DNA from: Costus lasius
Taxonomy: Eukaryota; Streptophyta; Magnoliopsida; Zingiberales; Costaceae
DNA: 64,000 bases
Direction: 5' to 3'
Assembly: GCA_027563935.2 (NCBI GenBank)
Contig: CM050454.1
Span: 18,845,501 to 18,909,500 of the forward strand
The translations under genes and the position numbers were made by a program. Positions 1,884 through 40,024 of the stretch are shown here, piece after piece (position 1 is the first letter of the stretch; every line of letters starts with the position of its first letter). Below the pieces are notes generated by a model. The model made no database searches and was not told where the DNA came from. It saw only the letters and a program-made list of their open reading frames with translations.

Positions 1884-4119
1884 TGTTAGAGAATGCCGGG
1901 TGTAATTTAAAATTTTGCAGTCCCAGGACGCAGCGGAAGAAGCATTACACCCGAAACACATTCCTTTCCCAAGGATCCATGCGAGTGAGTACACACAAGG
2001 ATGTGATAGAGATGTACCTCTTTTGCTTGTCTAGATGTCGAAGCAATGTTGAAGGCGCCCAAGTGTTCACCCTCTACAAGTATCCACGCGTTGACTCCTT
2101 GATCGTTGCTCCCTTCCACGCTCGGTGCTAGCCTCGGGAAGAGAATCAAGCCTTCACTCCACTTGCGCCACTTTCAAGAGAAGTTGCGCCAAGGAGGGAA
2201 TAGGGAAGATATCGCCAAGAACTTCCCTCTTCTTCTTTGCTTGCGCCACCTTCAAGCAAGATGCGCCAATGGCTATGAGAGGGAGAGGGCTTGCGACAAT
2301 AGAAGGAGAAGCCACCAAGCCCAATTTCTCTTTGCGCCAAGAAGAGGAGAATAAGAAAGGATGTCTTTCGGCCACTTGGAAGAAGGGTTGCGCCAAGCCT
2401 TTGTTGTTGTCACCCTTTGCCCTTGCTCACGCCTCTCTATGTATGTTCACGCCTCCTAGAAGTCAAACATTGGAAGGGGCGGTAAGGGGTCCTATAAATA
2501 GGACAAGAGGCAGCAAGGACAATGGCTAGGATCATGCCAAGTGGGCGGCTAGGATAAAAGAGTCTTGAGGTAAGGAAAGTCTCCAAGACTTTACCATAAA
2601 CCTCATTCAACCTATCCTAATTTGCCCAATGGCCATATCAGCCTAAGACATGCCTTAGAGGCATTCTTTCCATCCAAGGAGAAGGGCTAGGCGCAACATG
2701 AAGAATTCGACTAGGGCAAGGGTTTGGGTGCATGTAGGGTTCATAAGGAAAGTCTCCAAGACTTTACCATAAACATCTTCCTACTTGTCATATGCACCCA
2801 AGCTCTTTCCAAAAGAGTCCTCAAGCCATATCAGCCCCAAGACTTGCCTTAGAGGCAAGTATTCCATCCAAGGAAGAAGGGCTAGGCGCCCTTTACTTCC
2901 ATAATGAAGCAAAGGCGCCTCCCTCACCCCATTATGCCCCTAGGCGCCAATGGGGTGAGATTTCTCCCCATTATACCCTTTTAAGCCAATTCCTCTTCAT
3001 GACAACTAATTATTGGGTCTCATTGGATAATGAGCTAGCCCAAACTTCATGGCATGGGTTGATTAAGCCATTGGATCTAATCCAATGCAACCCTAATCCA
3101 AATGTGACCAATCTAGGTCAATTTCGGGTCAACCTGCCAAAAATGAAGTTTGGCTCCAATAACTTTCTTCCAACTCATCAGGCCCATTGGCGCTGATGAA
3201 TTCTTCCAAATGGATCCAAGTTATCCAATAACTTGATCCTAAGGCTTCTGATTAAAGCAACGTCAAGAGTCTATTGCGTGTGACCCCGTAGGATCCATAT
3301 GACGATGGCAATGATGTAAACATCATAAGCAATGAGGGGTATCTAGCAACACATCACTACTACCCATGTCATAGGACTTAAGTCATTATGGCAACAACTC
3401 CTAACAAGCAACGAGGATTCCTATTGCATTACAGATCCCTTTGCATAAGCTGATATCCTGCCATTGGATTAGTCTCAAGTTTATTATCCAATGCATTGGT
3501 CATGACTCAACAAGTGTGGCCACACTCTCCTGTCATGCACCAATAAGGTGGGGCGCCCCGAGGTGGATATCATACTTCCTCTGAAGGAAGGGGCAAATCC
3601 TACTATTGGTCATCCATGTCTCTACATAACTTATGACATGCCCAATGACAGTCGTTTTGATCTCCCAGTTACGGAGAGACGTAAGACTGTATTAAAGCAT
3701 ACCCATCATAAAATCTAGACATGAATACCTCAAGTCTAAGGATCAATACAAAACCTCTTGCATGTGAGATTGACTTGTTGACTAGACAAGTCAATCCTCA
3801 CGGTGGATCACTCCAGTGCATCCAATGCACCTGTATGTCTGCGTTACTGTGCCCCGCACCTAACCAGCCCATACACCAGTCTCACATGTACCAAAGCTGT
3901 CCCATATCTGCTAAGGTACCTTGTCTGGGGATAGCTTATGAGAATGGATCCAATCCAAACTCCTGGGACATTATTTATGCAACTTAATACATCAACGCAG
4001 GTAGAGAAGTCTGCATAATAACGACCATGCCTATAAAAAGAGTAATAGTTCTATCAAAGTACATTCAAACAATGCCTGACCATGTCCATACATTGGTCTT
4101 TAGGGCATATACACCAACA
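1884..4119 (-). repeat. Element I 3' LTR
   Basis: 2236 bp, plus-strand TGTTAGAG...CCAACA. It carries 9 bp near 2161-2169 that the other LTR (8911-11137) lacks. Plus-strand GC-rich reading frames inside it are LTR sequence, not genes. It holds palindrome P1 at 3513-3526 and the shared GCTAGCACCG motif on the minus strand around 2123-2137. Confidence 0.93.
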
Positions 4120-7401: not shown

Positions 7402-8897
7402 CTACAATAAGCAAATAAGTAAAATAAGTACTATGATAAAACATTTAACAAGGACTTTAAATTAAATGCTATGCTCCTACTACTTCCAAAACAAGTTGAG
7501 AACTCTCTAACTCAACATGGAGATAAGTGAGTAGGATCCTAATTTCACATAAGGTCTCCGCGACTCACGAGGGTGAGTTGAGATGCACAGAGAGTCTCAT
7601 GCTTCCTTAGGTAGGCATGCCAGCCAATTGTGCCATGCACAATTCCTCTTAGTTAAGACAGACTAGGCGCCCTGTGTCCAGCGAGGGCTGGATATAACAC
7701 AAAACCCTACCCTCTCAACAGCTGCCTCTAGTAATTCATCATGTCAATGACATATGAAAAACCAGTCAAGTCTGGTCCTAACCGTTATGCCCAGGGCCAA
7801 CAAATTTCCTTGCGAAGGCACGCCCAGGTTAAAACTGGACTGGGGAAATCATTGTCACCACACACCTTCTAAAGATAAGTGGGTGTGTCCCACGAGGGTG
7901 GGAAACAGTTCACAACACCACCGATCGATAGTTTGATGAGGGCTACGCGTTAGAAGGCTATCGACTTGATATTGAATTGAGAGTTTTTGCATGTTTGTTT
8001 TATTCTTTTCTAGCATGCAGTTTTCCTATGGTTCAGGCAGCAAAGGAAAAGCATCACGGGCATGCTATGGACAAATAATAAACCATCACAGGCATGCTAA
8101 TTTGGTCAATATGGTCATAGCCCTTTTCATACACATAACTTGTCACGAGCCATGTGACATGTTATTGTGCATCCAAGGGTTGCGAGTCCCTGAAGCAAAT
8201 CAGCCCATGCCAGAAGCCGAAAGCTAGTGTCCTTCCTTCAGCCGCAAGTCCATCACCAAGCTTTCAAAGCTGGCGCCACTCTGATATCGGTTGAAGAAGA
8301 CACCTTGTTGTCTTTGATGAACCTTAACCTATCTCATGCAAACAATTCTACATCTATTCTAAGGAAAGATGAAAATTTTACATCAAGAAGGGGAGAACCA
8401 CACGCAGGTGGTAGAAAGATTTTACAAGCATTCGTCACAGGTGGAAACATGCTTCCACATCACAACACAGGAGGGCACTCGCTATGACCATATCAACCCA
8501 TGAAAGAGACAAGTGGCGCATATATAAAATTTGAAAAACCGTAATAATCAAATTTTATCCCCTTATGCGCCAACTCCATCCAAAGCACTCTCTTTATCAA
8601 ATTTATGCTAAAATTAGGATCAAGTTTCATGATGATTTCATGGACCCTATCGGCTGGCAATTTTGTCAGATCAAGAGACCTGGCCAGTCCGAAGACTCAA
8701 TGCCCGTCCTACTTGACAAAACTACGTGCGCCTTTGGTCTTAAATCCATCATAAACACAATCCAAATTTCGGCCATAAAAATTGATGAAAGAAGTTTGGA
8801 TGAAAGCGCCTTCTAGGTTAAACGCGCATGGATGAACGAAAAATTTTCCAAAAATTTTTCACACAAGCAAATGTACACCTTGTGTTTCTCGCAAGTA
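7402..8897 (-). other. Element I leader with hairpin array
   Basis: Untranslated leader (minus strand) between PBS and gag. It contains hairpins H1 (7888-7903), H2 (7670-7704) and H3 (7563-7578), each with a CCTC loop on the sense strand, and an inverted repeat TTTTGTCA/TGACAAAA at 8661-8721. It ends with TACTTAT plus a T-rich run and TTGTAG (AG at 7402-7403), like a 3' splice site. No gene seen. Confidence 0.75.
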
Positions 8898-8909
8898 CCT
8901 CTGATACCA
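8898..8909 (-). promoter_or_regulatory. Primer-binding site, element I
   Basis: Minus strand TGGTATCAGAGG, one base from the 5' LTR edge (8911). One mismatch at the last base from the usual TGGTATCAGAGC. Confidence 0.85.
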
Positions 8910-8910
8910 C

Positions 8911-11137
8911 TGTTAGGGAATGCCAGGTGTAATTTAAAATTTTACAGTCCTAGGACGCAGCGGAAGAAGCATTACACCCGAAACACATTCCTTTCCCAAG
9001 GATCCATGCGAGTGAGTACACACAAGGATGTGATAGAGATGTACCTCTTTTGCTTGTCTAGATGTCGAAGCCATGTTGAAGGCACCCAAGTGTTCGACCT
9101 CTACAAGTATCCATGCGTCGACTCCTTGATCGTTGCTCCCTTCCATGCTCGGTGCTAGCCTCGCGAAGAGAATCAAGCCTTCACTCCACTTTCAAGAGAA
9201 GTTGCGCCAAGGAGGGAATAGGGAAGATATCGCCAAGAACTTCCCTCTTCTTCTTTGCTTGCGCCACCTTCAAGCAAGATGCGCCAATGGCTATGAGAGG
9301 GAGAGGGCTTGCGACAATAGAAGGAGAAGCCACCAAGCCCAATTTCTCTTTGCGCCAAGAAGAGGAGAAGAAGAAAGGATGTCTTTCGGCCACTTGGAAG
9401 AAGGGTTGCGCCAAGCCTTTGTTGTTGTCACCCTTTGCCCTTGCTCACGCCTCTCTATGTATGTTCACGTCTCCTAGAAGTCGAACATTGGAAGGGGCGG
9501 TAAGGGGTCCTATAAATAGGACAAGAGGCAGCAAGGACAATGGCTAGGATCATGCCAAGTGGGCGGCTAGGATAAAAGAGTCTTGAGGTAAGGAAAGTCT
9601 CCAAGACTTTACCATAAACCTCATTCAACCTATCCTAATTTGCCCAATGGCCATATCAGCCTAAGACATGCCTTAGAGGCATTCTTTCCATCCAAGGAGA
9701 AGGGCTAGGCGCAACATGAAGAATTCGACTAGGGCAAGGGTTTGGGTGCATGTAGGGTTCATAAGGAAAGTCTCCAAGACTTTACCATAAACATCTTCCT
9801 ACTTGTCATATGCGCCCAAGCTCTTTCCAAAAGAGTCCTCAAGCCATATCAGCCCCAAGACTTGCCTTAGAGGCAAGTATTCCATCCAAGGAAGAAGGGC
9901 TAGGCGCCCTTTACTTCCATAATGAAGCAAAGGCGCCTCCCTCACCCCATTACGCCCCTAGGCGCCAATGGGGTGAGATTTCTCCCCATTATACCCTTTT
10001 AAGCCAATTCCTCTTCATGACAACTAATTATTGGGCCTCATTGGATAATGAGCTATCCCAAACTTCATGGCATGGGTTGATTAAGCCATTGGATCTAATC
10101 CAATGCAACCCTAATCCAAATGTGACCAATCTAGGTCAATTTCGGGTCAACCTACCAAAAATGAAGTTTGGCTCCAATAACTTTCTTCCAACTCATCAGG
10201 CCCATTGGCGCTGATGAATTCTTCCAAATGGATCCAAGTTATCCAATAACTTGATCCTAAGGCTTCTGATTAAAGCAACGTCAAGAGTCTATTGCATGTG
10301 ACCCCGTAGGATCCATATGACGATGGCAATGATGTAAACATCATAAGCACTGAGGGGTATCTAGCAACACATCACTACTACCCATGTCATAGGACTTAAG
10401 TCATTATGGCAACAACTCCTTACAAGCAACGAGTATTCCTATTGCATTACAGATCCCTTTGCCTAAGCTGATATCCTGCCATTGGATTAGTCTCAAGTTT
10501 ATTATCCAATGCATTAGTCATGACTCAACAAGTGTGGCCACACTCTCCTGTCATGCACCAATAAGGTGGGGCGCCCCGAGTTGGATATCATACTTCCTCT
10601 GAAGGAAGGGGCAAATCCTACTATTGGTCATCCATGTCTCTATATGACTTATGACATGCCCAATGACAGTCGTTTTGATCTCCCAGTTACGGAGAGACGT
10701 AAGACTGTATTAAAGCATACCCATCATCAAATCTAGACATGAATACCTCAAGTCTAAGGATCAATACAAAACCTCTTGCATGTGAGATTGACTTGTTGAC
10801 TAGACAAGTCAATCCTCACGGTGGATCACTCCAGTGCATCCAATGCACCTGTATGTCTGCGTTACTGTGCCCCGCACCTAACCAGCCCATACACCAGTCT
10901 CACATGTACCAAAGCTGTCCCATATCTGCTAAGGTACCTTGTCTGGGGATAGCTTATGAGAATGGATCCAATCCAAACTCCTGGGACATTATTTATGCAA
11001 CTTAATACATCAAAGCAGGTAGAGAAGTCCTCATAATAACGACCATGCCTATAAAAAGAGTAATAGTTCTATCAAAGTACATTCAAACAATGTCTGACCA
11101 TGTCCATACATTGGTCTTTAGGGCATATACACCAACA
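8911..11137 (-). repeat. Element I 5' LTR
   Basis: 2227 bp, plus-strand TGTTAGGG...CCAACA, paired with 1884-4119. It contains palindrome P1 at 10531-10544. It is followed by the target duplication GTTTT and the resumed copia A leader. Confidence 0.93.
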
Positions 11138-13739: not shown

Positions 13740-14768
13740 TGTTGGTGTATATGCCCTGCAGACCAATGTATGGACATGGTCAGGCATTGTTTAAATGTAC
13801 TTCGATAGAATTAATGAAATTGATATAATCAATAAAGGCATGGTCGTTATTATGCAGATTGCTTTACCTGCGTTGATGTATTGAATTGCATAGATAATGT
13901 CCCAGGAGTTTGGATTGGATCCATTCTCATAAGTAATCCCCGGTCAAGGTGCCTTAGCCGATATGGGACAGCTTTGGTACATATGAGACTGGTGTATGGG
14001 CTGGTTAGGTGCGGGGCACAGTAACGCAGACATACAGGTGCATTGGATGCACTGGAGTGATCCACCGTGAGGATTGACTTGTCTAGTCAACAAGTCAATC
14101 TCACATGCAAGAGGTTTGCATTGATCCTTAGACTTGAGGTATTCATGTCTAGATATGATGATGGGTATGTTTTGATACAGTCTTACGTCTCTCCGTAAAT
14201 GGGTGATCAAAATGACTGTCATTGAGCATGTCATAAGTCATGTAGAGACATGGATGACCAATAGTAGGATTTGCCCCTTCCTTCCGAGGAAGCATGATAT
14301 CCACCTCGGGGCGCCCCACCTTATTGGTGCATGACAGGAAAGTGTGGCCACACTTGTTGAGTCATGACGAATGCATTGGATAATAAACTTGAGACTAATC
14401 CAATGGCAGGATATCAATTTAGGCAAAGGGATCTAGAATGCATGGGAATCCTCGTTGCTTGTTAGGGAGTTGTTGCCAGATGACTTAAGTCCTATGACAT
14501 GGGTAGTAGTGATGTGTTGCTAGATACCTCTCACTACTTATGATGATATTCAATCATCATTTCTATCGTCATTAGGATCCTACCGGGTCACACGCAATAG
14601 ACTCTTGACGTTGTTTTATGATCTAGAAATCTTGGAATATATTTGAGTTCATTATTCTGAGTCCAAGACAGATTCATGGTTGAATCTGAGTCCAATTGGG
14701 ATTCATGAGTTTGTATATGTATCCTAGTCAAGTTGGACTTGAACAAAGGATTATATACCATGTTGGAT

Positions 14769-15062
14769 TCGAATCCTAATCTAATTAGGAGTTGGAATCC
14801 TAATCCTATTAGGAATTGGAATCCTAATCCAACTAGGAGTTGGAATCCTAATCTAATTAGGAGTTGGAATCCTAACCCTATTAGGAATTGGAATCCTAAT
14901 CCAACTAGGAGTTGGAATCCTAATTTAATTAGGAGTTAGAATCCTAACCCTATTGGGAAATAGAGTCCTATTCCAACTAGGAGTTGGAATCCTAATTCAA
15001 TTAGGAGTTGGAATTCTAATTCTACTAGAAATGAGAATCCTAATCTAATTAGGATTCAAATC
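14769..15062 (+). repeat. 24-bp tandem array in LTR
   Basis: About a dozen imperfect 24-bp units of the type GGAATCCTAATC-YAAYTAGGAGTT. Each unit is itself close to a palindrome (TCCTAAT...ATTAGGA). Because 24 is a multiple of 3, one frame reads an artificial 8-residue repeat (WNPNxxRS); this is not a gene. Second copy at 21903-22196. Absent from the LTR of element I. Confidence 0.9.
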
Positions 15063-15651
15063 CTAATGAGAATTAGATTTGGATAAGGCCCATAGTGGTT
15101 GGGCGCAAATCCTAATCCAACTAGGATTCAAATCCTAAAGAGAATTGGATTTGGATAAGGCTCATTGTGTTGGGCGCAAATCCTAATCCAATAAGGATTT
15201 ATTTCCATGGGCCTAATTAGTGTTGAGATCCAAATCCAATTAGGGATTGTGGATCAAATCTAATTGAGGCAAGTTTGAATCCTAATAGGAGTTGGAAATA
15301 CACTTGGCGCATGGGATAATTCCATATATGGAATTTGCACCAATTGGGGTGTATGAATCCTTTTGGAAAGTTGTTTCCTCAAGTGGAAACTATCTTGGAC
15401 GTATGGGGCTGATATGTTGGCAAATATGGCTTGATTTATTCAAGCAATGATTTGGTCAATCATATATGGAAAGTCCTAATTGAATTGGAACTCAAATTAC
15501 CTCTCTTGATAAGGCAAGAAGCTAGATTCTTTCCATGCTTCATGTTGCGCCTATTCAAGAGAGGATGTGGCTGAACTCTTATGGCAATTCCTTGGAGGAA
15601 TTGTGCCAAGAGCATAGAAGGAAAGAGAGGTGGCGGTTTGGCTTTGTCGGT

Positions 15652-15659
15652 TATAAAAG
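15652..15659 (+). promoter_or_regulatory. TATA box of element III 5' LTR
   Basis: TATAAAAG, about 260 bp upstream of the GAGGCTAGCACCG-type motif. Copy in the 3' LTR at 22786-22793. Confidence 0.55.
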
Positions 15660-16170
15660 AAGGGGTATGCGCCCCCTCTTGTGATGACGATTTGATGATC
15701 ATTGGATGAACATTAAGTGCAGAATTCTTCTTGAGGAAAAGGCAACTTGGAGTTGCGCAAGCCCTAGAATTCAAGCCGCCCTCTTCTTCTTGTGGAGCGC
15801 CACCCTCTCTTCTCTTCCTCTTGTCTTTGGCCGAGAGTCTCCAAGCAAGGAGACAAGTTGGCGTGAAGAGCAAGGAGGAAGGAGAAGGAGATTCCGAGAG
15901 GTGATCTTCTCTTCCCAAGGCTAGCACCGAGCGTGGAAGGGAGCAACGTTGAGAAGGTCGACGCGTGGATACTTGTAGAGGACGAGCACGTGAGCGTCTT
16001 CAACTTGGCACCTTCATCCTAACAAGCAATAGAGGTACTAACCCTAACACATCCTTGTGTTCTCTCTCTCGCATGGATCCTTGGGAAAGGAATGTGTTTC
16101 GGGTGTAATGCTTCTTCCGCTGTGTCCTGGGACTGCAAAATTTTAAATTACACCCGGCATTCCCCAACAG

Positions 16171-16182
16171 TGGTATCAGAGC
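16171..16182 (+). promoter_or_regulatory. Primer-binding site, element III
   Basis: TGGTATCAGAGC one base after the 5' LTR end. Confidence 0.92.
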
Positions 16183-17678
16183 TACTTGCGAGAAACACAA
16201 GGTGTACGTTTGCTTGTGTGAAAAATTTTTGGAAAATTTTTCGTTCATCCATGCGCGTTTCACCTAGAAGGCGCTTTCATCCAAACTTCTTTTATCAATT
16301 TTTATGGCCGAAATTTGGATTGTGTTTATGATGGATTTAAGACCAAAGGCACACGTAGTTTTGTCAAGTAGGACGGGCATTGTGTCTTCGGACTGGCCGG
16401 GTTTCTTGATCTGACAAAATTGCCAGCCGATAGGGTCCATGAAATCATCATGAAACTTGATCCCAATTTTAGCATAAATTTGATTGAGAGAGTGCTTTGG
16501 ATGAAGTTGGCGCATAAGGGGATAAAATTTGATTTTTCCGGTTTTTCAAATTTTATATATGCGCCACTTGTCTCTTCCTTGGGTTAATATGGTCATAGCG
16601 GGTGCCCTCCTGTGTTGTGATGTGGAAGCATGTTTCCACCTGTGATGAATGCTTGTAAAATCTTTTTGCCACCTGCGTGTGGTTCTCCCCCTTCTTGATG
16701 TAAAATTTTCATCTTTCCTTAGAATAGATGTAGAACTGTTTACATAAGATAGGTTAAGGTTCATCAAAGACAACAAGGTGTCTTCTTCAACCGATATCAG
16801 AGTGGCGCCAGCTTTGGAAGCTTGGTGATGGACTTGCGGCTGAAGGAAGGACACTAGCTTTCGGCTTCTGGCATGGGCTGATTTGCTTCAGGGACTCACA
16901 ACCCTTGGATGTACGATAACATGTCACATGGCTCGTGACAAGTTATATGTATGAAAAGGGCTATGACCATATCGACCAAACTAGCATGCCTGTGATGGTT
17001 TATTATTTTGTCCATAGCATGCCTGTGATGTTTTTCCTTTGCTGCCATAACCATAGGAAAACTGCATGCTAGAAAAGAATAAAAACATGCAAAAACTCTC
17101 AATACAATATCAAGTCGATAGCCTTCTAACGCGTAGCCCTCATCAAACTATCGATCGGTGGTGTTGTGAACTGTTTCCCACCCTCGTGGGACACACCCAC
17201 TTATCTTTAGAAGGTGTGTGGTGACAATGATTTCCCCAGTCCAGTTTTAACCTGGGCGTGCCTTCGCAAGGAAATTCGTTGGCCCTGGGCATAACGGTTA
17301 GGACCAGACTTGACTAGTTTTTCATATGTCATTGACATGATGAATTACTAGAGGCAGCTGTTGAGAGGATAGGGTCCTGTGTTGTATCCAGCCCTCGCTG
17401 GACACAGGCCGCCTAGTCTGTCTTAACTAAGAGGAATTGTGCATGGCACAATTGGCTGGCATGCCTACCTAAGGAAGTATGAGACTCTCTGTGCATCTCA
17501 ACTCACCCTCGTGAGTCGCGGAGACCTCGCGTGAAATTAGGATCCTACTCACGTATTTCCAAGTTGAGTTTTGAGAGTTATCAACTTGTTAAGGAAATAG
17601 TGGGAGCATAGCATTTAATTTAAAGTCCTTGTTAAATGCTTTATCAAAGTACTTATTTTGCTTGTTTGCTTATTGTAG
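16183..17678 (+). other. Element III leader with hairpin array
   Basis: 1.5-kb untranslated leader. TTTTGTCA/TGACAAAA inverted repeat at 16359-16419. H1 17176-17191 (TCCCAC, loop CCTC, GTGGGA). H2 17376-17408 (outer CCTGTG/CACAGG, 5' bulge TTGTA, inner TCCAGC/GCTGGA, loop CCTC). H3 17501-17516 (ACTCAC, loop CCTC, GTGAGT). The end has TACTTAT at 17650-17656 and a T-rich run to TTGTAG at 17678, directly abutting the gag ATG. This looks like a 3' splice site. Confidence 0.8.
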
Positions 17679-18440
17679 ATGATTCCATCTCCTGAACCTA
17701 GATTGAAACTTCTTAAAAATAAACTGGATGGAACAAATTGGACAAGATGGTTCAGACTTTTGTCCAAACTTCTAGAACATGAGAATATGGTATATCTTCT
17801 TGAAAGACCTCCAACCCAGCCCTATATATATTTCTGTACAGAGTGGGAGTGGAATGTCTATCTTGAACATTGTGTGGATAATGAACATTACACTACTCTT
17901 GTTTTGAGGTGCTTGACCCCTGAGGTCTAGGTTGAGTGTGAAGAGATGGGGATCTATGATATGATCATACATCTTCGACGTCTCTTCACACCAGGCACTT
18001 CAAATAGTGATCTAGAGAGTGTTGTTGGATCTTCTGGGTGTTTGCCTGAATCTAGGAATGACTATGGTTCCGTATCTTCGAAGCTAAAACTTCGGAAGAC
18101 TGGGAATGCATGGAAATTTCAGGATGGATTAAGGCCCAGGAAGAGCATGGCACAAAAGAAGGGATGTTATCCATCTGCTTCAGGTATTGTGTTACTGAGG
18201 TCTTTATGTCTACTTCTTATTCATGGGTACTGGGTACCGCATGTGGAGCTTACATATGTTTTTCATATGCAGGGGCTCACAAGAAGTAGGACAATGAGGC
18301 TTGGTGGGATCGACATTCGAGTCAGGGACGGAGCATTGGATGCTGCTGTTGATGTCATCTCACTACCTTCAAAGACTTCAACTAGAACTTTGCTATTATG
18401 TACTAGCTTTTGTATTAGAACATTATGTCCATTATTTTGA
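17679..18440 (+). pseudogene. gag: Element III gag-like ORF with one stop
   Basis: ATG at 17679 opens 83 codons (LDGTNWTRWF motif, LLERPP segment), then TAG at 17928-17930, after which the same frame is open to 18440. In element I the corresponding codon is lysine (AAG), so a single A-to-T change made this stop. Beyond the stop the frame passes into a relic of the protease region (GYWVPHVEL resembling the SWVLDTACGAH region of relatives). No zinc knuckle. It is otherwise the orthologue of 6838-7401. Confidence 0.75.
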
Positions 18441-20873: not shown

Positions 20874-23303
20874 TGTTGGTGTATATGCCCTGCAGACCAA
20901 TGTATGGACATGGTCAGGCATTGTTTAAATGTACTTCGATAGAATTAATGAAATTGATATAATCAATAAAGGCATGGTCGTTATTATGCAGATTGCTTTA
21001 CCTGCGTTGATGTATTGAATTGCATAGATAATGTCCCAGGAGTTTGGATTGGATCCATTCTCATAAGTAATCCCCGGTCAAGGTGCCTTAGCCGATATGG
21101 GACAGCTTTGGTACATATGAGACTGGTGTATGGGCTGGTTAGGTGCGGGGCACAGTAACGCAGACATACAGGTGCATTGGATGCACTAGAGTGATCCACC
21201 GTGAGGATTGACTTATCTAGTCAACAAGTCAATCTCACATGCAAGAGGTTTGCATTGATCCTTAGACTTGAGGTATTCATGTCTAGATATGATGATGGGT
21301 ATGTTTTGATACAGTCTTACGTCTCTCCGTAAATGGGTGATCAAAACGACTGTCATTGAGCATGTCATAAGTCATGTAGAGACATGGATGACCAATAGTA
21401 GGATTTGCCCCTTCCTTCCGAGGAAGCATGATATCCACCTCGGGGCGCCCCACCTTATTGGTGCATGACAGGAAAGTGTGGCCACACTTGTTGAGTCATG
21501 ACGAATGCATTGGATAATAAACTTGAGACTAATCCAATGGCAGGATATCAGTTTAGGCAAAGGGATCTAGAATGCATGGGAATCCTCGTTGCTTGTTAGG
21601 GAGTTGTTGCCAGATGACTTAAGTCCTATGACATGGGTAGTAGTGATGTGTTGCTAGATACCTCTCACTACTTATGATGATATTCAATCATCATTTCTAT
21701 CGTCATTAGGATCCTACCGGGTCACACGCAATAGACTCTTGACGTTGTTTTATGATCTGGAAATCTTGGAATATATTTGAGTTCATTATTCTGAGTCCAA
21801 GACAGATTCATGGTTGAATCTGAGTCCAATTGGGATTCATGAGTTTGTATATGTATCCTAGTCAAGTTGGACTTGAACAAAGGATTATATACCATGTTGG
21901 ATTCGAATCCTAATCTAATTAGGAGTTGGAATCCTAATCCTATTAGGAATTGGAATCCTAATCCAACTAGGAGTTGGAATCCTAATCTAATTAGGAGTTG
22001 GAATCCTAACCCTATTAGGAATTGGAATCCTAATCCAACTAGGAGTTGGAATCCTAATTTAATTAGGAGTTAGAATCCTAACCCTATTGGGAAATAGAGT
22101 CCTATTCCAACTAGGAGTTGGAATCCTAATTCAATTAGGAGTTGGAATTCTAATTCTACTAGAAATGAGAATCCTAATCTAATTAGGATTCAAATCCTAA
22201 TGAGAATTAGATTTGGATAAGGCCCATAGTGGTTGGGCGCAAATCCTAATCCAACTAGGATTCAAATCCTAAAGAGAATTGGATTTGGATAAGGCTCATT
22301 GTGTTGGGCGCAAATCCTAATCCAATAAGGATTTATTTCCATGGGCCTAATTAGTGTTGAGATCCAAATCCAATTAGGGATTGTGGATTAAATCTAATTG
22401 AGGCAAGTTTGAATCCTAATAGGAGTTGGAAATACACTTGGCGCATGGGATAATTCCATATATGGAATTTGCGCCAATTGGGGTGTATGAATCCTTTTGG
22501 AAAGTTGTTTCCTCAAGTGGAAACTATCTTGGACGTATGGGGCTGATATGTTGGCAAATATGGCTTGATTTATTCAAGCAATGATTTGGTCAATCATATA
22601 TGGAAAGTCCTAATTGAATTGGAACTCAAATTAACTCTCTTGATAAGGCAAGAAGCTAGATTCTTTCCATGCTTCATGTTGCGCCTATTCAAGAGAGGAT
22701 GTGGCTGAACTCTTATGGCAATTCCTTGGAGGAATTGCGCCAAGAGCATAGAAGGAAAGAGAGGTGGCGGTTTGGCTTGGTCGGTTATAAAAGAAGGGGT
22801 ATGCGCCCCCTCTTGTGATGACGATTTGATGATCATTGGATGAACATTAAGTGCAGAATTCTTCTTGAGGAAAAGGCAACTTGGAGTTGCGCAAGCCCTA
22901 GAATTCAAGCCGCCCTCTTCTTCTTGTGGAGCGCCACCCTCTCTTCTCTTCCTCTTGTCTTTGGCCGAGAGTCTCCAAGCAAGGAGACAAGTTGGCGTGA
23001 AGAGCAAGGAGGAAGGAGAAGGAGATTCCGAGAGGTGATCTTCTCTTCCCGAGGCTAGCACCGAGCGTGGAAGGGAGCAACGTTGAGAAGGTCGACGCGT
23101 GGATACTTGTAGAGGACGAGCACGTGAGCGTCTTCAACTTGGCACCTTCATCCTAACAAGCAATAGAGGTACTAACCCTAACACATCCTTGTGTTCTCTC
23201 TCTCGCATGGATCCTTGGGAAAGGAATGTGTTTCGGGTGTAATGCTTCTTCCGCTGCGTCCTGGGACTGCAAAATTTTAAATTACACCCGGCATTCCCCA
23301 ACA
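20874..23303 (+). repeat. Element III 3' LTR
   Basis: 2430 bp, same length as the 5' LTR. It contains the second 24-bp array (21903-22196), P1 at 21474-21489 and TATAAAAG at 22786-22793. The target duplication ATCAC follows at 23304-23308. Confidence 0.95.
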
Positions 23304-24021
23304 ATCACATCATTCTTTACTGCTTTTATTATCTGCAGAAGCATGCCTGTAATGTTTTATCGTTATAGGATTGCATGCCTGTAATGATAGACATAAGATA
23401 AATCTGAGATGATGAGACCTTAAACAAAACCCTCAATTAAAATATCAAGTCTGGTAGCCTTCTAAGGCGTAGCCCTCACTAAGCTATCGATCAGTGGAGT
23501 TGTGAATTGTTTCCCACCCTCGTGGGACACACCCACTTATCTTTAGAAAGTGCGTGGTGGCAATGGTTTCCCCAGTCCAGTTATAACCTAGGCGTGCCTT
23601 CGCAAGGAAACTCGTTGGCCCTGGGCATAACGGTTAGGAATGGACTTGACTAGAAGTTCACATGTGCTGGGCACATGGTGAAAGTCTAGAGGCATCGTTG
23701 AGAGGTAAAGGTTTCATGTTGTATCCAGCCCTCGCTGGACATGAAATGCCCAGACTGTCTCAACAAGGGGAGTTGCATGGAGCAACCGGCCGGCGCGCCC
23801 ACCTTAGGAAACATGGGTTACTTTATGCATATCATCCCACCCTCGTGGGGCGCGAAGCCTCATGTGAAATAAGGATCCCATCTCACTAGGAAGTCTTAAA
23901 CTTCTCGATTGACTTTGTGGGTTGTCAATTCGAATAGTGGGAGCAGTAATCATTTAAAACAAGTCCAGTTTAAATGATTCGAAGTAGTACTAATCTGCTA
24001 TTTCTTGGTTATTGTAGAACA
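23304..24021 (+). other. Copia A leader, segment 3, with hairpins and acceptor-like end
   Basis: Last part of the copia A leader. H1 23512-23527 (TCCCAC/GTGGGA, loop CCTC). H2 23712-23746 (outer TTTCATG/CATGAAA, bulge TTGTA, inner TCCAGC/GCTGGA, loop CCTC). H3 23835-23850 (TCCCAC/GTGGGG, one T-G pair, loop CCTC). TACTAAT at 23988-23994 is a plant branch-point match and TTGTAG ends at 24017, five bases before the gag ATG at 24022. The upstream in-frame ATG at 23974 lies in this leader and is not supported by the other copies. Confidence 0.8.
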
Positions 24022-27646: not shown

Positions 27647-28789
27647 TGTTGGTGTATATGCCCTAGGACCTAGTTTTGGTCAACTTATGTACTACTTGAC
27701 TTTGATATTTATATATCATTCTGGCATTGTCATTATCTATGTTTGTTTACATCTGCGCATATGTACTAACATGATAATGTCCCTAGAGACAGATTGGATC
27801 TGTGCTCGACCTATAATCCCCAGTCGATGTACCTTAGTGGATATGGGATAGCTATGGTACTTGTGAGACTGGTATGTGGGCTGGTTAGGACGCAGACACA
27901 TGGGTATATCATTGGAGGATATACTGGATAGACCCGCTGTGAGGCTATGACTTGGTGTCATGAGTTATCCTCACAAGTGACAAGAGATGCATTGATCCCT
28001 TGACTTGAGGTCATTGACCATTCTATATGGTTAGGGACTTGCTTTGATACAACTTAACACCTCGCCGTAGTTGGGAGGTCATAACGGTTGTCATTGAGCA
28101 TGTCACGACCCATATGAGAAGGTCAATGGACACACATAGGATTTGCCCCTTCCTTAGGGAAGTATGATATCCATGGAGCTCCTCTATGGTTCTATGACTG
28201 AGAGTGTATGGCCATACCCAGGTAAGAACCTGTTTTAGTCATAGCCATGTGATTGGATGAAAACAAGTGGTGACACACTTGTCCAATCGGATATCAGTTT
28301 GGCAAAGAGACTGTAATGCATCTGTACCTAGTTGCGATGATGGAGATGTCGATGTCGATATCCATTCTGATGACTTGGGTAGCAGCGATGCACTGCTAGG
28401 TGCCACTCACTGCTTGTGGTGACATTTGGTCAGCACTGCCAACGTCAGAGGGACCTACAGGGTCGTACACCTTGATACTTGAGTTCTCGTATTGATCGGG
28501 AAGCCTTATGATCGAGTTATTGGATAACTCAGATCTAATTGAGAGATTTCATCAACGCCAATGGGCCTAATGAGATGGAAGAATTTTATTGGAGCCAAAC
28601 TTCATTTTTGGCAGGTTGACCCGTATTTGACCATGGTTGGTCACATTTGGATTAGGGTTGCATTGGATTGGATTCAAGTGCTTAATCAACCCATGTAATG
28701 GAGTTTGGGCTAGCTCATTATCCAATGAGGCCCAATAATAAGTTGTCATGAAGAGAAGAAGGGCTAGAAGGGTATAATGGGGACAAATC
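27647..28789 (+). repeat. Copia A 3' LTR, part 1
   Basis: First 1143 bp of the 3' LTR (TGTTGGTGTATATGCCC start), interrupted by element IV at its AAATC target site. It matches 1-1041 from 27749 onward. P1 at 28206-28217. Confidence 0.95.
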
Positions 28790-30498
28790 TGAAGAGTCCC
28801 CTTCAAGGGGGAGCGCAAGCAGATGAAACCCCTTTCAAGAGGGGGGCAAAAAACCCTTAAGGGTGGCGCATAAAATTGCAAGCGGAAGCAAGGGTTTTTC
28901 ATGGATCTTAGCAAGATAATATGATCAACTTGATGAAGTTTAGATCCATACCAAAGCCATGAGGAAGATGGCGACTTGGAAGAGAAAGATCGAAAGGGAT
29001 CTTCTCCCTAGTTGACGCACACAAGATGATGTGCTTGCTCCTTGGAGATCCTTGTGCTAGCAAGGTCCTTCAAGGGTCCCTCTCGTATGGTAAGGAAATG
29101 AGAGATGATGTCTAGGCTTGCCGAACCTCCACCAAGACCTCGCCTTCTCCACGCCAAAGTCTCGTCAAGCAAGAGCAAGGAGACGAGAGTTGAATGGAGC
29201 GTTCAAGTCATTTGGCGTTCAAGGGAACATGCGCTAAATGACTTTCCAAAATTGGAAAATCCATTAAGCCATGCGTTCATGATCACTAAATCGATCAAAA
29301 CGCCAAAACAATGAACCATACGTTCAAGCTCTTGAACCGGTTCAAAGTAAATGTGTTCGGTCCAAAGGCCAAACCAAGCCAGCCCAAGCCAATCGGTCTA
29401 GATCAACTAAACCCTATGGTTTCCAATCTAACCGTTCATCTCATGATGCTCTTGATCTCACCGATCTAGCATCATCTCTCTCGATCGAAGCTTACCGATC
29501 TCAAGCCCTAATCAATCAAACATGATCAGACCAGATCTCACTTACAATCAGAGATTAAATCCCTTTAAACTGAACCCAAACAATTCAGTCCACACGATCT
29601 GACTCAAGTAAGCCATATCATCAAATTGTGCGACCCTAAGGGTTTCCTTTAAATGTCGGTAACAATAACTTACATTATCACGATCAGTGAGGGGTATCTA
29701 GCAACACATCACTGTCTCCTGATATAAAGGAAAGAGTCTTCCAAGACTACACCCAAACCATAGCACAAGTGTGAATCCACTTCACAAGGCATGCATGTAT
29801 CCTTTGCCACTGGATGTTCTTATTGGACAAGCGTGTCAAGCCTGTGACTCCAATACGATGAGCATGATTAAATCAGATGAACATAGTCATCTGGGTATGG
29901 CCATACACTTTCTCAATCATCTCATATAGGGGGCCCCTATAGAACACCACACTCCTTCAACAAGGAGACGGCAATCCTCTATCTATCACTAGTGCCCTAA
30001 CCTGACTCATGATCATTATCCAAGATAGTCTATAACCATTATGTTTCAAATGATATTGAACTACCTCAAAACAATGACAATCATCATTTAGAAACACAAG
30101 TGATCTCAAGTCAGAGGACATGTGCCACTTGTAGCATACAAGGATTATTCACATTGTGACAAGCAATTGAATATCCTAGTAGGGTCTGTCCAGTACATCC
30201 AATGTACCCATGAGTCTACATCTTATTCCATGCTCGAACCATCCTATAAGATTAGAACACATATTAGTCTCAATCATATCAAGGCTGTCTCATGTTCACC
30301 AAGATATCTCGACTAAGGACTTTATAGCATGTCAGCCTAGCTGAACAGCATTGAGACATTATTCAGAAGTACGCTTATTACAGCAGACAAGGTAACAACC
30401 TGAATAATAACCATGCCTTTATAAACACAAGAGTTTATTATATGATACTGATACAATCCCAAGGCCTCAAACATTAGCCTTAAGGGCATACCCCAACA
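28790..30498 (-). repeat. Element IV 3' LTR
   Basis: 1709 bp; minus-strand TGTTGGGGTATGCCC...GACTCTTCA. P1 palindrome at 29895-29906. The ORF at 29105-29314 and others in this interval are LTR sequence repeated at 36521-36730. Confidence 0.95.
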
Positions 30499-30514
30499 AT
30501 CTCCCACTTGCACT
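30499..30514 (-). promoter_or_regulatory. Polypurine tract, element IV
   Basis: Minus strand AGTGCAAGTGGGAGAT abutting the 3' LTR, four bases beyond the end of the polyprotein stop codon. Confidence 0.9.
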
Positions 30515-34403: not shown

Positions 34404-36190
34404 GGTGTTCGTTGCTGCAGGAATCTACAACAATGCAAGAACAGCAAGGTCAGTATCAATGTATAGAATCAATCCAGGACTTAAGAAAGATTCTTTTTCT
34501 CACTATTTTATCTGGCTGAAAAATCCAGCAAAACAGCCCGAAAGAGTGGAACTCTTTTAGTGAGATGGGATCCAGATTTCATACTTGGTCTCCGCGTCCC
34601 GCTCAGGCGAGATAAGATGCACAGAGATGACAAGCACTAATTTCTGGTAGGCTGTCCCAGCCAATCGCCAACCCATGCGATTCCCCTTCACCTGGGCAAT
34701 CCAGCAGACTGTGCCAACTGAGTTGGTACAACACAGTCTCTGATCCCTCAGATGGCTGCCTCCATGCGCTACCATATGCGCCACATATGTAGCCTACATG
34801 GTCAAGCTGACCCGACCTACTCCCTGGACCACCACGTGCTATGCTGAGCAACGAGAAGCGATAAATCCCTTCTCTGTAACACGCAGGTGAAATCCCACAC
34901 CGTCTGAAGATAGATGGACGTGCCCACTGAGTGGGTACAACACGGCTCCAACGATAGTCAGAACAGTGAGGTTTCGCGTCAGAAGGCATTACGTGCTTGA
35001 TATTTTAGCGTTTGGATTTTAACGGTCTTTTATCTTCTTACTATCAGGCAAATCCTATGGCTATAGCAGAAGATAAATAAATCATGCTGTTCTACTTATT
35101 TAAACAATAAAAGAAAGCATGCATCTTATGTGGTAAAAGCCCATAGCCTAAGTAAGACCTTAAGATACTTAAGTCTTCACTTGCTCTTCTTGGGTCTTTA
35201 GCATCTCATCTGGTCCAACCCAGGGCCCTTGCGCCAAGAGCACCTCAGGTGCGCCACCAGCTGAATGCCCCTCTGGGATGTGTGCCTTTGTGCTCTTGTC
35301 TAATCAAAATACATTTTGATCTATCTAGACAAGTTTGACTCGCAGGGCAATTATACAATAAATTAATTAAAAAGTGATTCGCAGATCACAATAATATTAA
35401 TTTACAGGTTTAATTCCAGGCACGCAGGCCCCAGCACAGCACACATTTAACATGGGCAGCCCACATAAGAATAAATAAACAAGCATAGGCATCAAACAAC
35501 ATGTGATCCAATTAAAAGAAAATAAATTTTGAAAACCCCATTGGCATCAATTTTAATTTTCTTATGTGCCCTACAACCTTACAATGGTCCATTGATAGGG
35601 ATCCACTCATTCATCTAGTCAGATCCTCTGCCCCTTGCATGCACCAAGTCCTAACTGACTCGAGTTGACCTAATGGTCAACCATGCATGCGCCAAGGGCT
35701 GAACAACCCTCATGAGGTCTGGCAAGCGGGTGTGACCCCGGGCCTAACTCATGTGTGTTCAATGGTTGTCTCAACCAGACCTCGCTACACGCCTAAGATG
35801 CAATCGACCTATAGCCACCTCGTGCTTGCGCACAGGTGCCATCTGGTCGATCCATCTCGGCTGTCAGATGGTCTGATCAGACTATTGGATCTAACCTAGA
35901 GGTGACTTCAACCCCATCAACCCATCTAAGGGTTTATAGTAGGCGCCACTTAGATCTAGTCATAGGCGCGCATGTTAGGTTTTTGATAAAATAACATGAA
36001 CTAAGCGCCAACACAAGACATGCGACAAGATGAACAAACAACATGCGCCAACATAAGGTAAACATCTTACTTTCGCATGAAGAAATAACATGTAAGTTTC
36101 GCATGTCAACAAGATCTAAGCATACATGTAAATGCGCAACCAAGGATCACAAAATATACCAAGCAATCATATTACATGCTTGAACCGCAT
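34404..36190 (-). other. Element IV leader with hairpin array
   Basis: 1.8-kb untranslated leader on the minus strand. H1 34923-34935 (CCCAC/GTGGG, loop TCA, with outer CGTG/CACG and a TTGTA bulge). H2 34706-34739 (outer AGACTGTG/CACAGTCT, bulge TTGTA, inner CCAAC/GTTGG, loop TCA). H3 34597-34612 (TCTCGC/GCGGGA, loop CTGA). The end shows TACTGAC (34449-34455), a pyrimidine-rich stretch and TTGTAG (AG at 34425-34426). Small ORFs here have no recognisable product. Confidence 0.8.
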
Positions 36191-36202
36191 GCTCTGATAC
36201 CA
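36191..36202 (-). promoter_or_regulatory. Primer-binding site, element IV
   Basis: Minus strand TGGTATCAGAGC, two bases from the 5' LTR. Confidence 0.93.
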
Positions 36203-36204
36203 AT

Positions 36205-37914
36205 TGAAGAGTCCCCTTCAAGGGGGAGCGCAAGCAGATGAAACCCCTTTCAAGAGGGGGGGCGAAAAACCCTTAAGGGTGGCGCATAAAATTGCAAGCG
36301 GAAGCAAGGGTTTTTCATGGATCTTAGCAAGATAATATGATCAACTTTATGAAGTTTAGATCCATACCAAAGCCATGAGGAAGATGGCGACTTGGAAGAG
36401 AAAGATCGAAAGGGATCTTCTCCCTAGTTGACGCACACAAGATGATGTGCTTGCTCCTTGGAGATCCTTGTGCTAGCAAGGTCCTTCAAGGGTCCCTCTC
36501 GTATGGTAAGGAAATGAGAGATGATGTCTAGGCTTGCCGAACCTCCACCAAGACCTCGCCTTCTCCACGCCAAAGTCTCGTCAAGCAAGAGCAAGGAGAC
36601 GAGAGTTGAATGGAGCGTTCAAGTCATTTGGCGTTCAAGGGAACATGCGCTAAATGACTTTCCAAAATTGGAAAATCCATTAAGCCATGCGTTCATGATC
36701 ACTAAATCGATCAAAACACCAAAACAATGAACCATACGTTCAAGCTCTTGAACCGGTTCAAAGTAAATGTGTTCGGTCCAAAGGCCAAACCAAGCCAGCC
36801 CAAGCCAATCGGTCTAGATCAACTAAACCCTAAGGTTTCCAATCTAACCGTTCATCTCATGATGCTCTTGATCTCACCGATCTAGCATCATCTCTCTCGA
36901 TCGAAGCTTACCGATCTCAAGCCCTAATCAATCAAACATGATCAGACCAGATCTCACTTACAATCAGAGATTAATTCCCTTTAAACTGAACCCAAACAAT
37001 TCAGTCCACACGATCTGACTCAAGTAAGCCATATCATCAAATTGTGCGACCCTAAGGGTTTCCTTTAAATGTCGGTAACAATAACTTACATTATCACGAT
37101 CAGTGAGGGGTATCTAGCAACACATCACTGTCTCCCGATATAAAGGAAAGAGTCTTCCAAGACTACACCCAAACCATAGCACAAGTGTGAATCCACTTCA
37201 CAAGGCATGCATGTATCCTTTGCCACTGGATGTTCTTATTGGACAAGCGTGTCAAGCCTGTGACTCCAATACGATGAGCATGATTAAATCAGATGAACAT
37301 AGTCATCTGGGTATGGCCATACACTTTCTCAATCATCTCATATAGGGGGCCCCTATAGAACACCACACTCCTTCAACAAGGAGACGGCAATCCTCTATCT
37401 ATCACTAGTGCCCTAACCTGACTCATGATCATTATCCAAGATAGTCTATAACCATTATGTTTCAAATGATATTGAACTACCTCAAAACAATGACAATCAT
37501 CATTTAGAAACACAAGTGATCTCAAGTCAGAGGACATGTGCCACTTGTAGCATACAAGGATTATTCACATTGTGACAAGCAATTGAATATCCTAGTAGGG
37601 TCTGTCCAGTACATCCAATGTACCCATGAGTCTACATCTTATTCCATGCTCGAACCATCCTATAAGATTAGAACACATATTAGTCTCAATCATATCAAGG
37701 CTGTCTCATGTTCACCAAGATATCTCGACTAAGGACTTTATAGCATGTCAGCCTAGCTGAACAGCATTGAGACATTATTCAGAAGTACGCTTATTACAGC
37801 AGACAAGGTAACAACCTGAATAATAACCATGCCTTTATAAACACAAGAGTTTATTACATGATACTGATACAATCCCAAGGCCTCAAACATTAGCCTTAAG
37901 GGCATACCCCAACA
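36205..37914 (-). repeat. Element IV 5' LTR
   Basis: 1710 bp, nearly identical to 28790-30498. P1 palindrome at 37311-37322. Followed on the plus strand by the AAATC duplication and the rest of the copia A 3' LTR. Confidence 0.95.
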
Positions 37915-38722
37915 AAATCTTCTCCCCTAGGCGCCTATGGGCATAATGGGGAGAAGTGGCACAATTTGCTTCATAAGGAAGCAATTGACGCCTCCCCCTT
38001 TATCCCTTATGGTATGAATGCCTATATGGCATTGCTTGGGGCGCAAGGCAAGGCCTTGGCGCACAAAGAAAGGCATGGGCACAAAAGGAATGGTTGAATG
38101 AGAATTATGGAAATGTCTTAGAGACTTTCCTTGTCTCAAACCTTCTCATCCTAGCCGCCCACTTGTCTTGATCCTAGCATTTCATAAACCGCCTCTTACC
38201 CTATAAAAGAGCACCTAGCCGACCCCTCTTATGAGTGATTAATGCTTGAAGGCGTGAACACAAGAAGAGGGACGAGTGCTAGAAGCAAGGGCGCATCTTC
38301 CTTCTTCCATAGCCACAAGCCTCTCCCTCCTTTCCTCTTGGTGCAAGGAGCTTTGGTGCTTGGTGGCTTGGGTTGTTTCCTTCTTCTCTTGGCGCATCCT
38401 TTCTCTTGGTGGCGCAAGTGAAGTGGAGCATCTCCCTAAGGCTTTGATCTTGTTCCCGAGGCTAGCACCGGGTGTGGAAGAAGAGAACTCAAGAGATCCG
38501 TGTGTGTGAGACTGCAGAGGGCGCACACTTGGGCGCCTACATCAGCATCACTCCAAATCGCTCTTAAGGTATTTCTTAACTCATCGTGTCGACTCTCTTA
38601 CTTGCGATCTTCACTGGGTTTTTGGGACCGGCCTGTTTCGGGGACATTCTTCCGCTGTGCAATGAATGTATGTATGTCTATAACTCTAAAAAATTGTAAA
38701 ATGTCCCTGGGGTTTCCCAACA
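37915..38722 (+). repeat. Copia A 3' LTR, part 2
   Basis: Second part of the 3' LTR after element IV, including the repeated AAATC. It holds TATAAAAG at 38202-38209 and the GAGGCTAGCACCG motif near 38458, and ends CCCAACA at 38722. The sequence changes at 38723 to gypsy gag, so a read-through ORF across this junction (38500-38985) is a chimera, not a gene. Confidence 0.95.
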
Positions 38723-40024
38723 GGAACTATCCAAATTTTTCATATAGAAACAATCCAAACCCAGTTCCTCAACAGACGTATAGACAACCCCCCGGATTTC
38801 AACCCCAACCTCGACCTTATGCACAGCAGCAACCACAACAGCCACAGAAATCTCAACTGGAAGAAATCATGGAGACTTTCATTTCTTCTCAGACGAAGAC
38901 AGATGAAACAGACAATGATATGATGAGATACGTCACCACAAGGCTTGAAGCCATAGAAAGCCATAACAAACAAATAGACACCTAGTTAGCAAACTTAGCC
39001 ACTTCCATAGCTAGAGCTCCAGGAAAGTTACCCTCCCAACCTGAACCAAACCCGAGGGAGCACATTAATGCTATTACCACTCAAAGTGGTAAACAACTAG
39101 AGGAGCCTAGGGTGCCTAATTCTGAAGTCGAAGTTGAGCTACCATCCCAATCTGAATCTGTCAAAAAGGGAGAAGAAAAAGAACCTGAAGTGAAAGAACC
39201 AACTTATATCCCTCCCCCTGCCTACAAGCCACCTGTACCATTTCCCTAAAGATTGGCTAAGGCAAAGTTAGATAAACAGTTTGGAAAGTTTTTGGATATT
39301 TTGAATAAACTGTATATTAATATTTCGTTTACTGAAGCAATTTTGCAGATGCCCACATATGTTAAGTTTCTAAAGGACATCCTTTCGAATAGGCGGAAGT
39401 TGGAATAACCGGGGACCGTTGCACTCACTGAGGAGTGTAGCGCCATAATCCAGAACAAGCTTCCACAAAAGATGAAGAATCCGGGCAGCTTCTCAATCCC
39501 TTGCCAAATCGGGGATCTCTCTTTTGATCACGCACTATGAGACTTGGGAGCAAGCGTCAGTCTTATGCCTTCTTCCCTTTTCAAGCGACTTGACATTGGT
39601 GACGTGAAAGTAACACCGATTTCGTTGCAGCTAGCTGACCGCTAGGTGCGGAAACCTATGGGAATTCTAGAAGATGTCCCGATCAAAGTCGGTGACTTCT
39701 TCATCCCAGTGGACTTTGTTGTTCTTGAAATGGAAGAGGATGTTAAGTTGCCGATAATTCTGACCGTTCCTTGCCACAGCTAGAGCGGTCATTGATGTGA
39801 AAAAGGGAAAAGTAGCATTGAATATCGGTAATGACGCTATAGAGTTTGATTTATCTTCGAGTCTGAAAAAGCCTTTTGTTGCAGGATCTTGTTGTAGTGT
39901 GGACATCATAGATGATGTGGTAGAAGATCTTACGCACATTAGCTCCAGCACTGACCCGCTAGAGGTCACTCTTTTGGAGAGTCCACATACCGAAGACAAT
40001 GAGTAAGCCATAAGATATGCACAA
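38723..40024 (+). pseudogene. gag: Athila gag C-terminus and protease remnant
   Basis: Starts mid-gag with a P/Q-rich stretch (PPGFQPQPRPYAQQQ) and an LEEIMETFI segment, then SGKQLEEP and a YIPPPAYKPPVPFP linker, typical of the Athila gag-protease junction. The protease region has KNPGSFSIPCQIG and DLGASVSLMPSSLF (active-site-like DLGAS near 39540). Broken by stops at about 38983, 39247, 39407, 39538 and 39643; several look like CAG to TAG or CAA to TAA changes. A frameshift lies near 39765-39775, after which the frame reads ATARAVIDVKKGK into the RT ORF region. Confidence 0.85.

Follow-up and report, generated by a model that had tools for sequence, protein, structure and literature searches.

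In a set of plant Ty1/copia elements, the gag-proximal ~600 nt of the leader that follows the PBS form a folded RNA domain that is kept by selection, as shown by covariation. The domain carries three hairpins of one design, H1, H2 and H3, which expose the same or a nearly identical loop within most elements, and it is a real, selected RNA structure, richer than first described. Its most likely role would be the marking of genomic RNA for recognition by Gag, possibly limited to unspliced RNA. Copia elements make up a large share of many plant genomes, yet little is known about what distinguishes their genomic RNA from mRNA.

The analyzed window, a 64,000-nt stretch of the Costus lasius genome (C9:18845501-18909500), is crowded with nested Ty1/copia elements, comprising I, III and IV as well as the older A, C and D. 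Element III (plus strand; LTRs 13740-16169 and 20874-23303) and element IV (minus strand; LTRs 28790-30499 and 36205-37915) each possess LTRs that are 99.5% alike, and those of element I (minus strand; 1884-4119 and 8911-11137) are 98.1% alike. Both LTRs of III contain an array of 24-nt tandem repeats (14696-15150 and 21830-22284) that can itself form repeated hairpins. Positions 1-1845 match 27749-28790 plus 37915-38723, and the PBS of A lies at 1846; judging from these repeats, A probably harbors I, III and IV, with III located in its leader. Element IV still has long ORFs, in which copia gag, zinc knuckle, integrase and RT domains are recognized; the CCHC zinc knuckle (PF00098), a usual RNA-binding module, is situated in its gag ORF. 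The IV protein has 454 relatives; among the 120 listed, the named ones were mostly plant polyproteins (from Hibiscus, Trifolium, Oryza, Euphorbia and others) and the remaining named ones were some metagenomes and records labelled bacterial. A PF14223 profile search of the plant's own genome (1,278,925,522 bases, 269 contigs) returned 38975 candidates, of which 150 were scored (104.5-138.7 bits), the top ones being gag copies far above the IV ORF (57.1 bits); these copies were left aside when leaders were collected.

The PBS of III, TGGTATCAGAGC (16171-16182, plus strand), directly follows the 5' LTR (13740-16169) and recurs at 36202 in IV and, with one mismatch, at 8909 in I; the hairpins lie 3' of the PBS and 5' of gag. 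In the five elements measured, this leader spans 1.5-1.8 kb and contains 27-49 ATGs. Leaders of I and III are 96% identical, those of III, A and C share 75-80% among themselves and that of IV shares 55% with the rest, D being outside this comparison. Because I and III are closely related, the six copies represent only some five lineages, with I/III counted as one beside A, C, D and IV.

All three hairpins follow a common plan of an outer stem, a 5-7-nt bulge on the 5' side only, an inner stem and a 3-4-nt loop. In III (plus strand), H1 (17157-17201) consists of a lower stem GGTGG/CCACT, an upper outer stem TGTG/CACA, the 5' bulge AACTGTT and an inner hairpin at 17176-17191 with stem TCCCAC/GTGGGA and loop CCTC. 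H2 (17360-17427) has an interrupted 22-bp outer stem, the 5' bulge TTGTA, a 6-bp inner stem TCCAGC/GCTGGA and again the loop CCTC, while H3 (17486-17524) combines an outer stem TCTCTGTG/CGCGGAGA with the 5' bulge CATCTCA, the inner stem ACTCAC/GTGAGT and the loop CCTC. The initial annotation had assigned the one-sided 5' bulge to H2 alone, which proved incorrect, as H1 and H3 also have such a bulge. The arms that it quoted for H2 were found in III (17376-17408), A (23711-23747, plus strand), C (50468-50503, plus strand), IV (34739-34706, minus strand) and I (7705-7669, minus strand), and those of H1 and H3 were present as quoted; with 22 outer and 6 inner pairs, H2 is longer than it had been described.

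In I (minus strand), the H1 inner hairpin occupies 7888-7903 and H3 7555-7593. The corresponding features of IV (minus strand) are H1 at 34919-34944 (CGTG, bulge TTGTA, CCCAC(TCA)GTGGG, CACG), H2 at 34706-34739 and H3 at 34589-34627 with loop CTGA. The inner hairpins of H1 and H3 lie at 23512-23527 and 23835-23850 in A (plus strand) and at 50272-50285 and 50592-50607 in C (plus strand), where the loops of H1, H2 and H3 are CCTA, ACTA and CCTA, respectively. An array in six copies had been proposed, which holds for H1 and H3, both found in D (minus strand; inner hairpins at 62680-62665 with loop CCTC and 60795-60780 with loop CCTT). H2 is complete in five copies rather than six because an insertion of ~1.6 kb splits that of D: leader matches lie on either side (62757-62454 and 60874-60652), and the H3 inner hairpin is beyond the insertion. 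The inserted segment (62454-60874) has abundant ACCGAA/CCGATT repeats at its ends and resembles a DNA transposon or MITE.

We assessed covariation in each hairpin separately. For H2, aligned across the five complete window copies, 14 of the 28 pairs showed at least one double compensatory change and 94.9% of 137 cells were paired; none of 500 shuffles reached any of five measures. Sliding the partner by 1-3 columns left one to three double-change pairs, a control biased in favor of the structure, which was derived from the same alignment. Among the 13 pairs of H3, present in six copies, 5 had double changes, and pairing was intact in 97.4% of 78 cells. Here, shuffles attained the pair count in 37 of 500 cases and further pair types in 413 of 500, and none attained the paired cells, double-change cells or score. 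H1 was aligned by hand, MAFFT having misaligned IV; in these six rows, four of them distinct, 83 of 84 cells were paired and 5 of 14 pairs showed double changes, all contributed by C or IV and one (in C) possibly reflecting loss of a whole base pair.

The signal extends well beyond the single hairpins. In a whole-leader alignment of 640-odd columns from five copies (III, A, C, IV and I), RNAalifold predicted a structure of 173 pairs, of which 54 carried double changes. When branch-specific substitutions were replayed at other columns as a null, a mean of 19.8 double-change pairs was obtained (maximum 28 in 150), and a second null, shuffling columns within the same pattern, gave 21.1 (maximum 30 in 67). 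The RNAalifold covariation bonus, for which positive values are favorable, was +12.0 for the leader versus -5.2 and -2.9 in the two nulls. As a control, a coding stretch of the same elements yielded 22 double-change pairs versus 12.1 (60 nulls) and 11.6 (70 nulls), a small excess; the null maximum was 22 in both and the bonus -1.3. The sense strand was favored, as expected for RNA with G-U pairs: in the antisense leader, symmetry preserved 49 double-change pairs, and the bonus was -2.5 compared to +12.0 and the energy -96 compared to -133. RNAalifold energy was rejected as a line of evidence since the coding control beats its nulls likewise (-125 versus -72 and -56). Since the sequence varies while pairing stays, the fold is under selection; the earlier suggestion of selection on RNA structure is, thus, well supported by H2, H3 and H1 individually and by the leader as a whole.

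Within this fold, H1 belongs to a domain at 17121-17355 (III, plus strand) that also contains covarying hairpins at 17239-17257, 17297-17314 and 17315-17350. It is closed by the helix GCCTT/GAGGC, which is invariant and, therefore, outside the reach of the covariation test. A second domain at 17432-17546 (plus strand) comprises a hairpin at 17436-17452 together with H3, itself carried by a covarying stem (17468-17472/17537-17541); this domain is closed by AGGA/TCCT and by CCTAA/TTAGG, the latter with double changes in two of five pairs. The three-hairpin array originally reported is, thus, real and was understated, being part of a larger covarying fold at about 17121-17546. A palindrome at 17458-17465 and equivalent positions (GGCATGCC in I and III, GGCGCGCC in A, GGCGTGCC in C; absent in IV) was additionally observed as a candidate dimer contact.

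The shared plan of the hairpins emerged unprompted, as RNAalifold applied to the five full copies returned a 6-bp inner stem with a tetraloop and no 3' bulge. IV is an exception in that its H1 and H2 have 5-bp inner stems and 3-nt loops, and both carry the bulge TTGTA. An H2 covariance model matched H1 of IV (22.3 bits, E 0.0059) and also H1 of a second IV copy (L015), with weak matches in the H1 regions of A and of a further copy, L019 (E 0.46 and 0.75). The design descriptor identified three hairpins each in the leaders of III, I and IV, two in A, one in C and one in the first half of D, compared to means of 0.03-0.33 per leader in dinucleotide shuffles (60 each). Across the whole window, leaders included, it matched 0.47 (plus strand) and 0.43 (minus strand) times per 600 nt, and 8 of 25 matches scoring at least 30 were in these leaders, so that the design is not unique to them.

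The loops vary between elements and largely agree within them: CCTC occurs three times in each of III, I and A, C has CCTA/ACTA/CCTA, IV has TCA/TCA/CTGA and D has CCTC (H1) and CCTT (H3). In each of III, I and A, three hairpins have loop and closing pair in common, a result obtained in none of 200 shuffles per element; as these elements are relatives, the common loop does not represent three independent events. Sharing by two hairpins, as in C and IV, was reached by 10 and 11 of 200 shuffles and is not rare. The statistic is not specific alone because it also fires outside leaders, namely in the LTR of III, at its 24-nt tandem repeat (five copies), and in one coding piece (two copies, 5 of 100 shuffles).

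We then followed the stems into further copies from the same genome. First-look searches with the III and IV leaders gave 2072 and 1004 candidates, respectively, with 40 scored from each. The 27 further copies comprised 7 of 8 cut out from the III-leader search, the other one being III of the window itself, 18 short places from both candidate lists (10 IV-type and 4 III-type from the lower list ends and 4 III-type from mid-list) and 2 from neighboring DNA, the ~190 kb adjoining the window containing only two more leaders. L004, L012 and L013 were left out as duplicates and III, I and IV of the window were added. In this set, 881 of 888 cells were paired. All pairs were kept in 10 of 10 (H1), 16 of 18 (H2) and 7 of 10 (H3) III-type sequences, with 100/100, 214/216 and 137/140 cells paired, eight short III-type places not spanning H1 and H3 whole. 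The corresponding IV-type values were 11 of 12, 12 of 12 and 11 of 12, with 107/108, 156/156 and 167/168 cells. Failure of the stems to persist in further copies had been named as grounds for abandoning the structure, and they do persist; as these copies are 94-99% identical to the reference, the data demonstrate persistence and not independent covariation.

More distant elements came from a scan of genome contigs with a gag-pol alignment, in which 19 stretches matched and three copia contigs in bacterial assemblies (L001, L002 and L003) were confirmed. L002, presumably from another plant, is 44% identical in its best segment and has a leader with four hairpins, each placed on an outer stem and with CCA(T)CCCTTCGGTGG cores. 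Three of the four have an identical loop and closing pair, CCCTTCG, a degree of sharing seen in 0 of 200 shuffles. The shared-loop array was absent from the L003 leader, and L001 contains too little leader to judge. The H2 covariance model found no match in L001-L003 at E up to 1, which, together with the lack of an array in L003, indicates that the motif is family-specific or absent outside its family. Arrays of like hairpins are, thus, not universal, and at least one distant family (L002) has one that is built on another motif. Copia contigs were present in the GTDB bacterial assemblies of Labilibacter sediminis and Streptomyces clavifer, and partial copia elements were noted on plasmid records of Streptomyces camelliae and Kitasatospora cathayae; all of these are probably plant contamination. 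The plasmid search gave three partial polyprotein matches, two starting at the record end and, therefore, without a leader and the third 24% identical. Among viral contigs, DNA patterns of the leader and of the L002 hairpin gave no exact matches, and neither the gag protein nor the gag-pol alignment gave a confirmed one; phages gave none.

The leader domain may be a cis-acting mark of the genomic RNA that is recognized by the element's own Gag for packaging, a reading for which we weigh belief and doubt about equally. Own Gag or nucleocapsid, present in many copies, would bind the repeated bulge-and-loop sites, so that the right RNA would be packaged. Consistent with a Psi domain, the fold is situated between PBS and gag, its structure covaries and the same exposed loop recurs (in three hairpins each of III, I, A and L002 and in two each of C and IV, with no such repeat in L003).

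The ends of the leader add a possible link to splicing. In III, a splice-donor-like pattern, ATAGAG↓GTACTA (16029-16040, plus strand), lies in the LTR 136 nt before the PBS, and a splice-acceptor-like U-rich end, TTTGCTTATTGTAG (17665-17681, plus strand), directly precedes the gag ATG at 17679, both being assigned by pattern only. Donor-like AG↓GTA was found 134-195 nt 5' of the PBS in five of seven places (16029-16040, 9039-9050, 49016-49027, 1685-1696 and L002:423-434, representing five elements). The strict form was missing in IV, which has a looser G↓GTATGG ~165 nt before the PBS, and in L003, a contig beginning only 31 nt before the PBS and, thus, too near to judge. Such patterns are common by chance, with about 0.4 estimated per 260 nt from composition. 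All eight leaders whose end was inspected (I, III, A, C, IV and L001-L003) have a pyrimidine-rich YAG located at or up to 22 nt before the gag ATG. From these splice-like patterns, the leader may be an intron that unspliced RNA alone retains. A leader intron may even be present in published data: 13 of 15 GAG RNAs in triticale were reported to contain a single intron, the place of which is not stated in section 3.4 of that report.

Removal of the leader, including PBS and hairpins, might rid the gag mRNA of its 27-49 upstream AUGs, and only unspliced RNA might then carry the packaging mark. We offer as a tentative and distinctly doubtful model that splicing gates copia packaging. The leader would be a facultative intron that extends from U5 to the gag AUG and holds the PBS and element-specific bulged hairpins; spliced RNA would be translated, and unspliced RNA alone would bear the primer site and the Gag-recognized array. 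The loop would serve as a family-specific address that changes in step across the hairpins of one element.

Alternatively, the fold might act in translation as an IRES or shunt that takes ribosomes past the upstream AUGs to gag, which we consider unlikely. The 27-49 ATGs in five leaders and a structured, conserved fold, lying about 155-520 nt before gag in III, would suit this role, but it would be superfluous if the leader is spliced out, and repeated hairpins with the same loop are not a known mark of IRESs. Quite unlikely, in our assessment, is a primary role in splicing or export, in which the hairpins would fold a facultative leader intron and tune the unspliced fraction or its nuclear exit. 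Besides the YAG ends in eight of eight leaders and AG↓GTA in five of seven places, this idea draws on an invariant run, AATATCAAG, that can pair with the acceptor region; however, that pairing lacks covariation (0 of 12 pairs with double changes), and donor patterns occur at the chance rate estimated above.

Very unlikely is a dimerization signal, in which loops or a palindrome would kiss between two genomic RNAs. Features read by eye point in this direction: CUAG in the loops of C is self-complementary, the IV H1/H2 loop CUCAG is the reverse complement of the IV H3 loop CUGAG, and I, III and A have a GC-rich palindrome (GGCATGCC/GGCGCGCC) between H2 and H3. Against it, the loops CCUC (I, III, A and H1 of D) and CCUU (H3 of D) are not self-complementary, IV has no palindrome and no form is conserved across all families. 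In I, III and A, where H1-H3 have the loop CCUC, none of these hairpins shows a conserved palindromic kissing loop, the usual mark of dimerization, leaving dimerization through these loops unsupported there. Kissing between H1, H2 and H3 was also set aside as not conserved. That the signal reflects chance inverted repeats, DNA-level structure or an alignment artefact without RNA function is hardly credible: the structure was derived from the copies used to test it and energy alone beats nulls in the coding control too, but 54 double-change pairs against null maxima of 28 and 30, the covariation bonus, the strand preference and the loss of signal in H2 and H3 upon slides of 1-3 columns all argue otherwise.

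Comparison to Rfam gave no match at gathering score in the window and, for the leader at 16170-17690 with E up to 1, a single sub-threshold CrcZ match (15 bits versus 95). In the literature searched, which mostly lay outside subscription journals, no description of a covarying leader structure in plant copia elements was found. The accessible text of a 2025 review (PMC12786077) contains 'packaging' eight times and 'secondary structure', 'dimeriz' and 'hairpin' zero times. With a repeated-hairpin domain and an explicit covariance model, the genomic-RNA question becomes directly testable, and the group gains a structural marker.

Among known systems, retroviral Psi and dimerization leaders include the paired tetraloop hairpins of gammaretroviruses and SL1-SL4 of HIV-1. 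The copia leaders resemble them in that the hairpins lie between PBS and gag, that several expose the same loop and that their stems covary. They differ in that each hairpin has a one-sided 5-7-nt 5' bulge, the loops are pyrimidine-rich (CCUC, CCUA) rather than purine-rich, the hairpins are much further from the PBS (~1 kb) and the elements are Ty1/copia in a plant host, with Gag binding putative. The layout of outer stem, one-sided 5' bulge, inner stem and loop is shared with the hepadnavirus epsilon stem-loop, which marks RNA for packaging. Unlike the copia array, epsilon is a single structure that binds polymerase and templates priming, and there is no relation between the two.

Closer in host range, a Sirevirus paper on non-coding motifs places, in the part available, a stem-loop at the PPT and not in the leader (PMC2829016). 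Conserved dimerization and packaging signals are mentioned for the barley copia element BARE2 (PMC3735527). BARE1 and BARE2 are likewise plant copia elements with a long leader and a genomic RNA kept apart from translated RNA; the passages concerned give no letters of the BARE signals (PMC3735527). The BARE RNA pools are described as arising from two promoters (PMC3735527, PMC12786077), and splicing of BARE1 yields a Gag-only RNA (PMC3735527). In EVD/Copia93, splicing similarly divides a plant copia RNA pool, with full-length RNA unspliced, as may also hold for the elements studied here; according to the sections available, the EVD intron, which separates exons 1 and 2 of GAG, is coupled to premature polyadenylation (PMC8892269), whereas here the leader itself would be removed.
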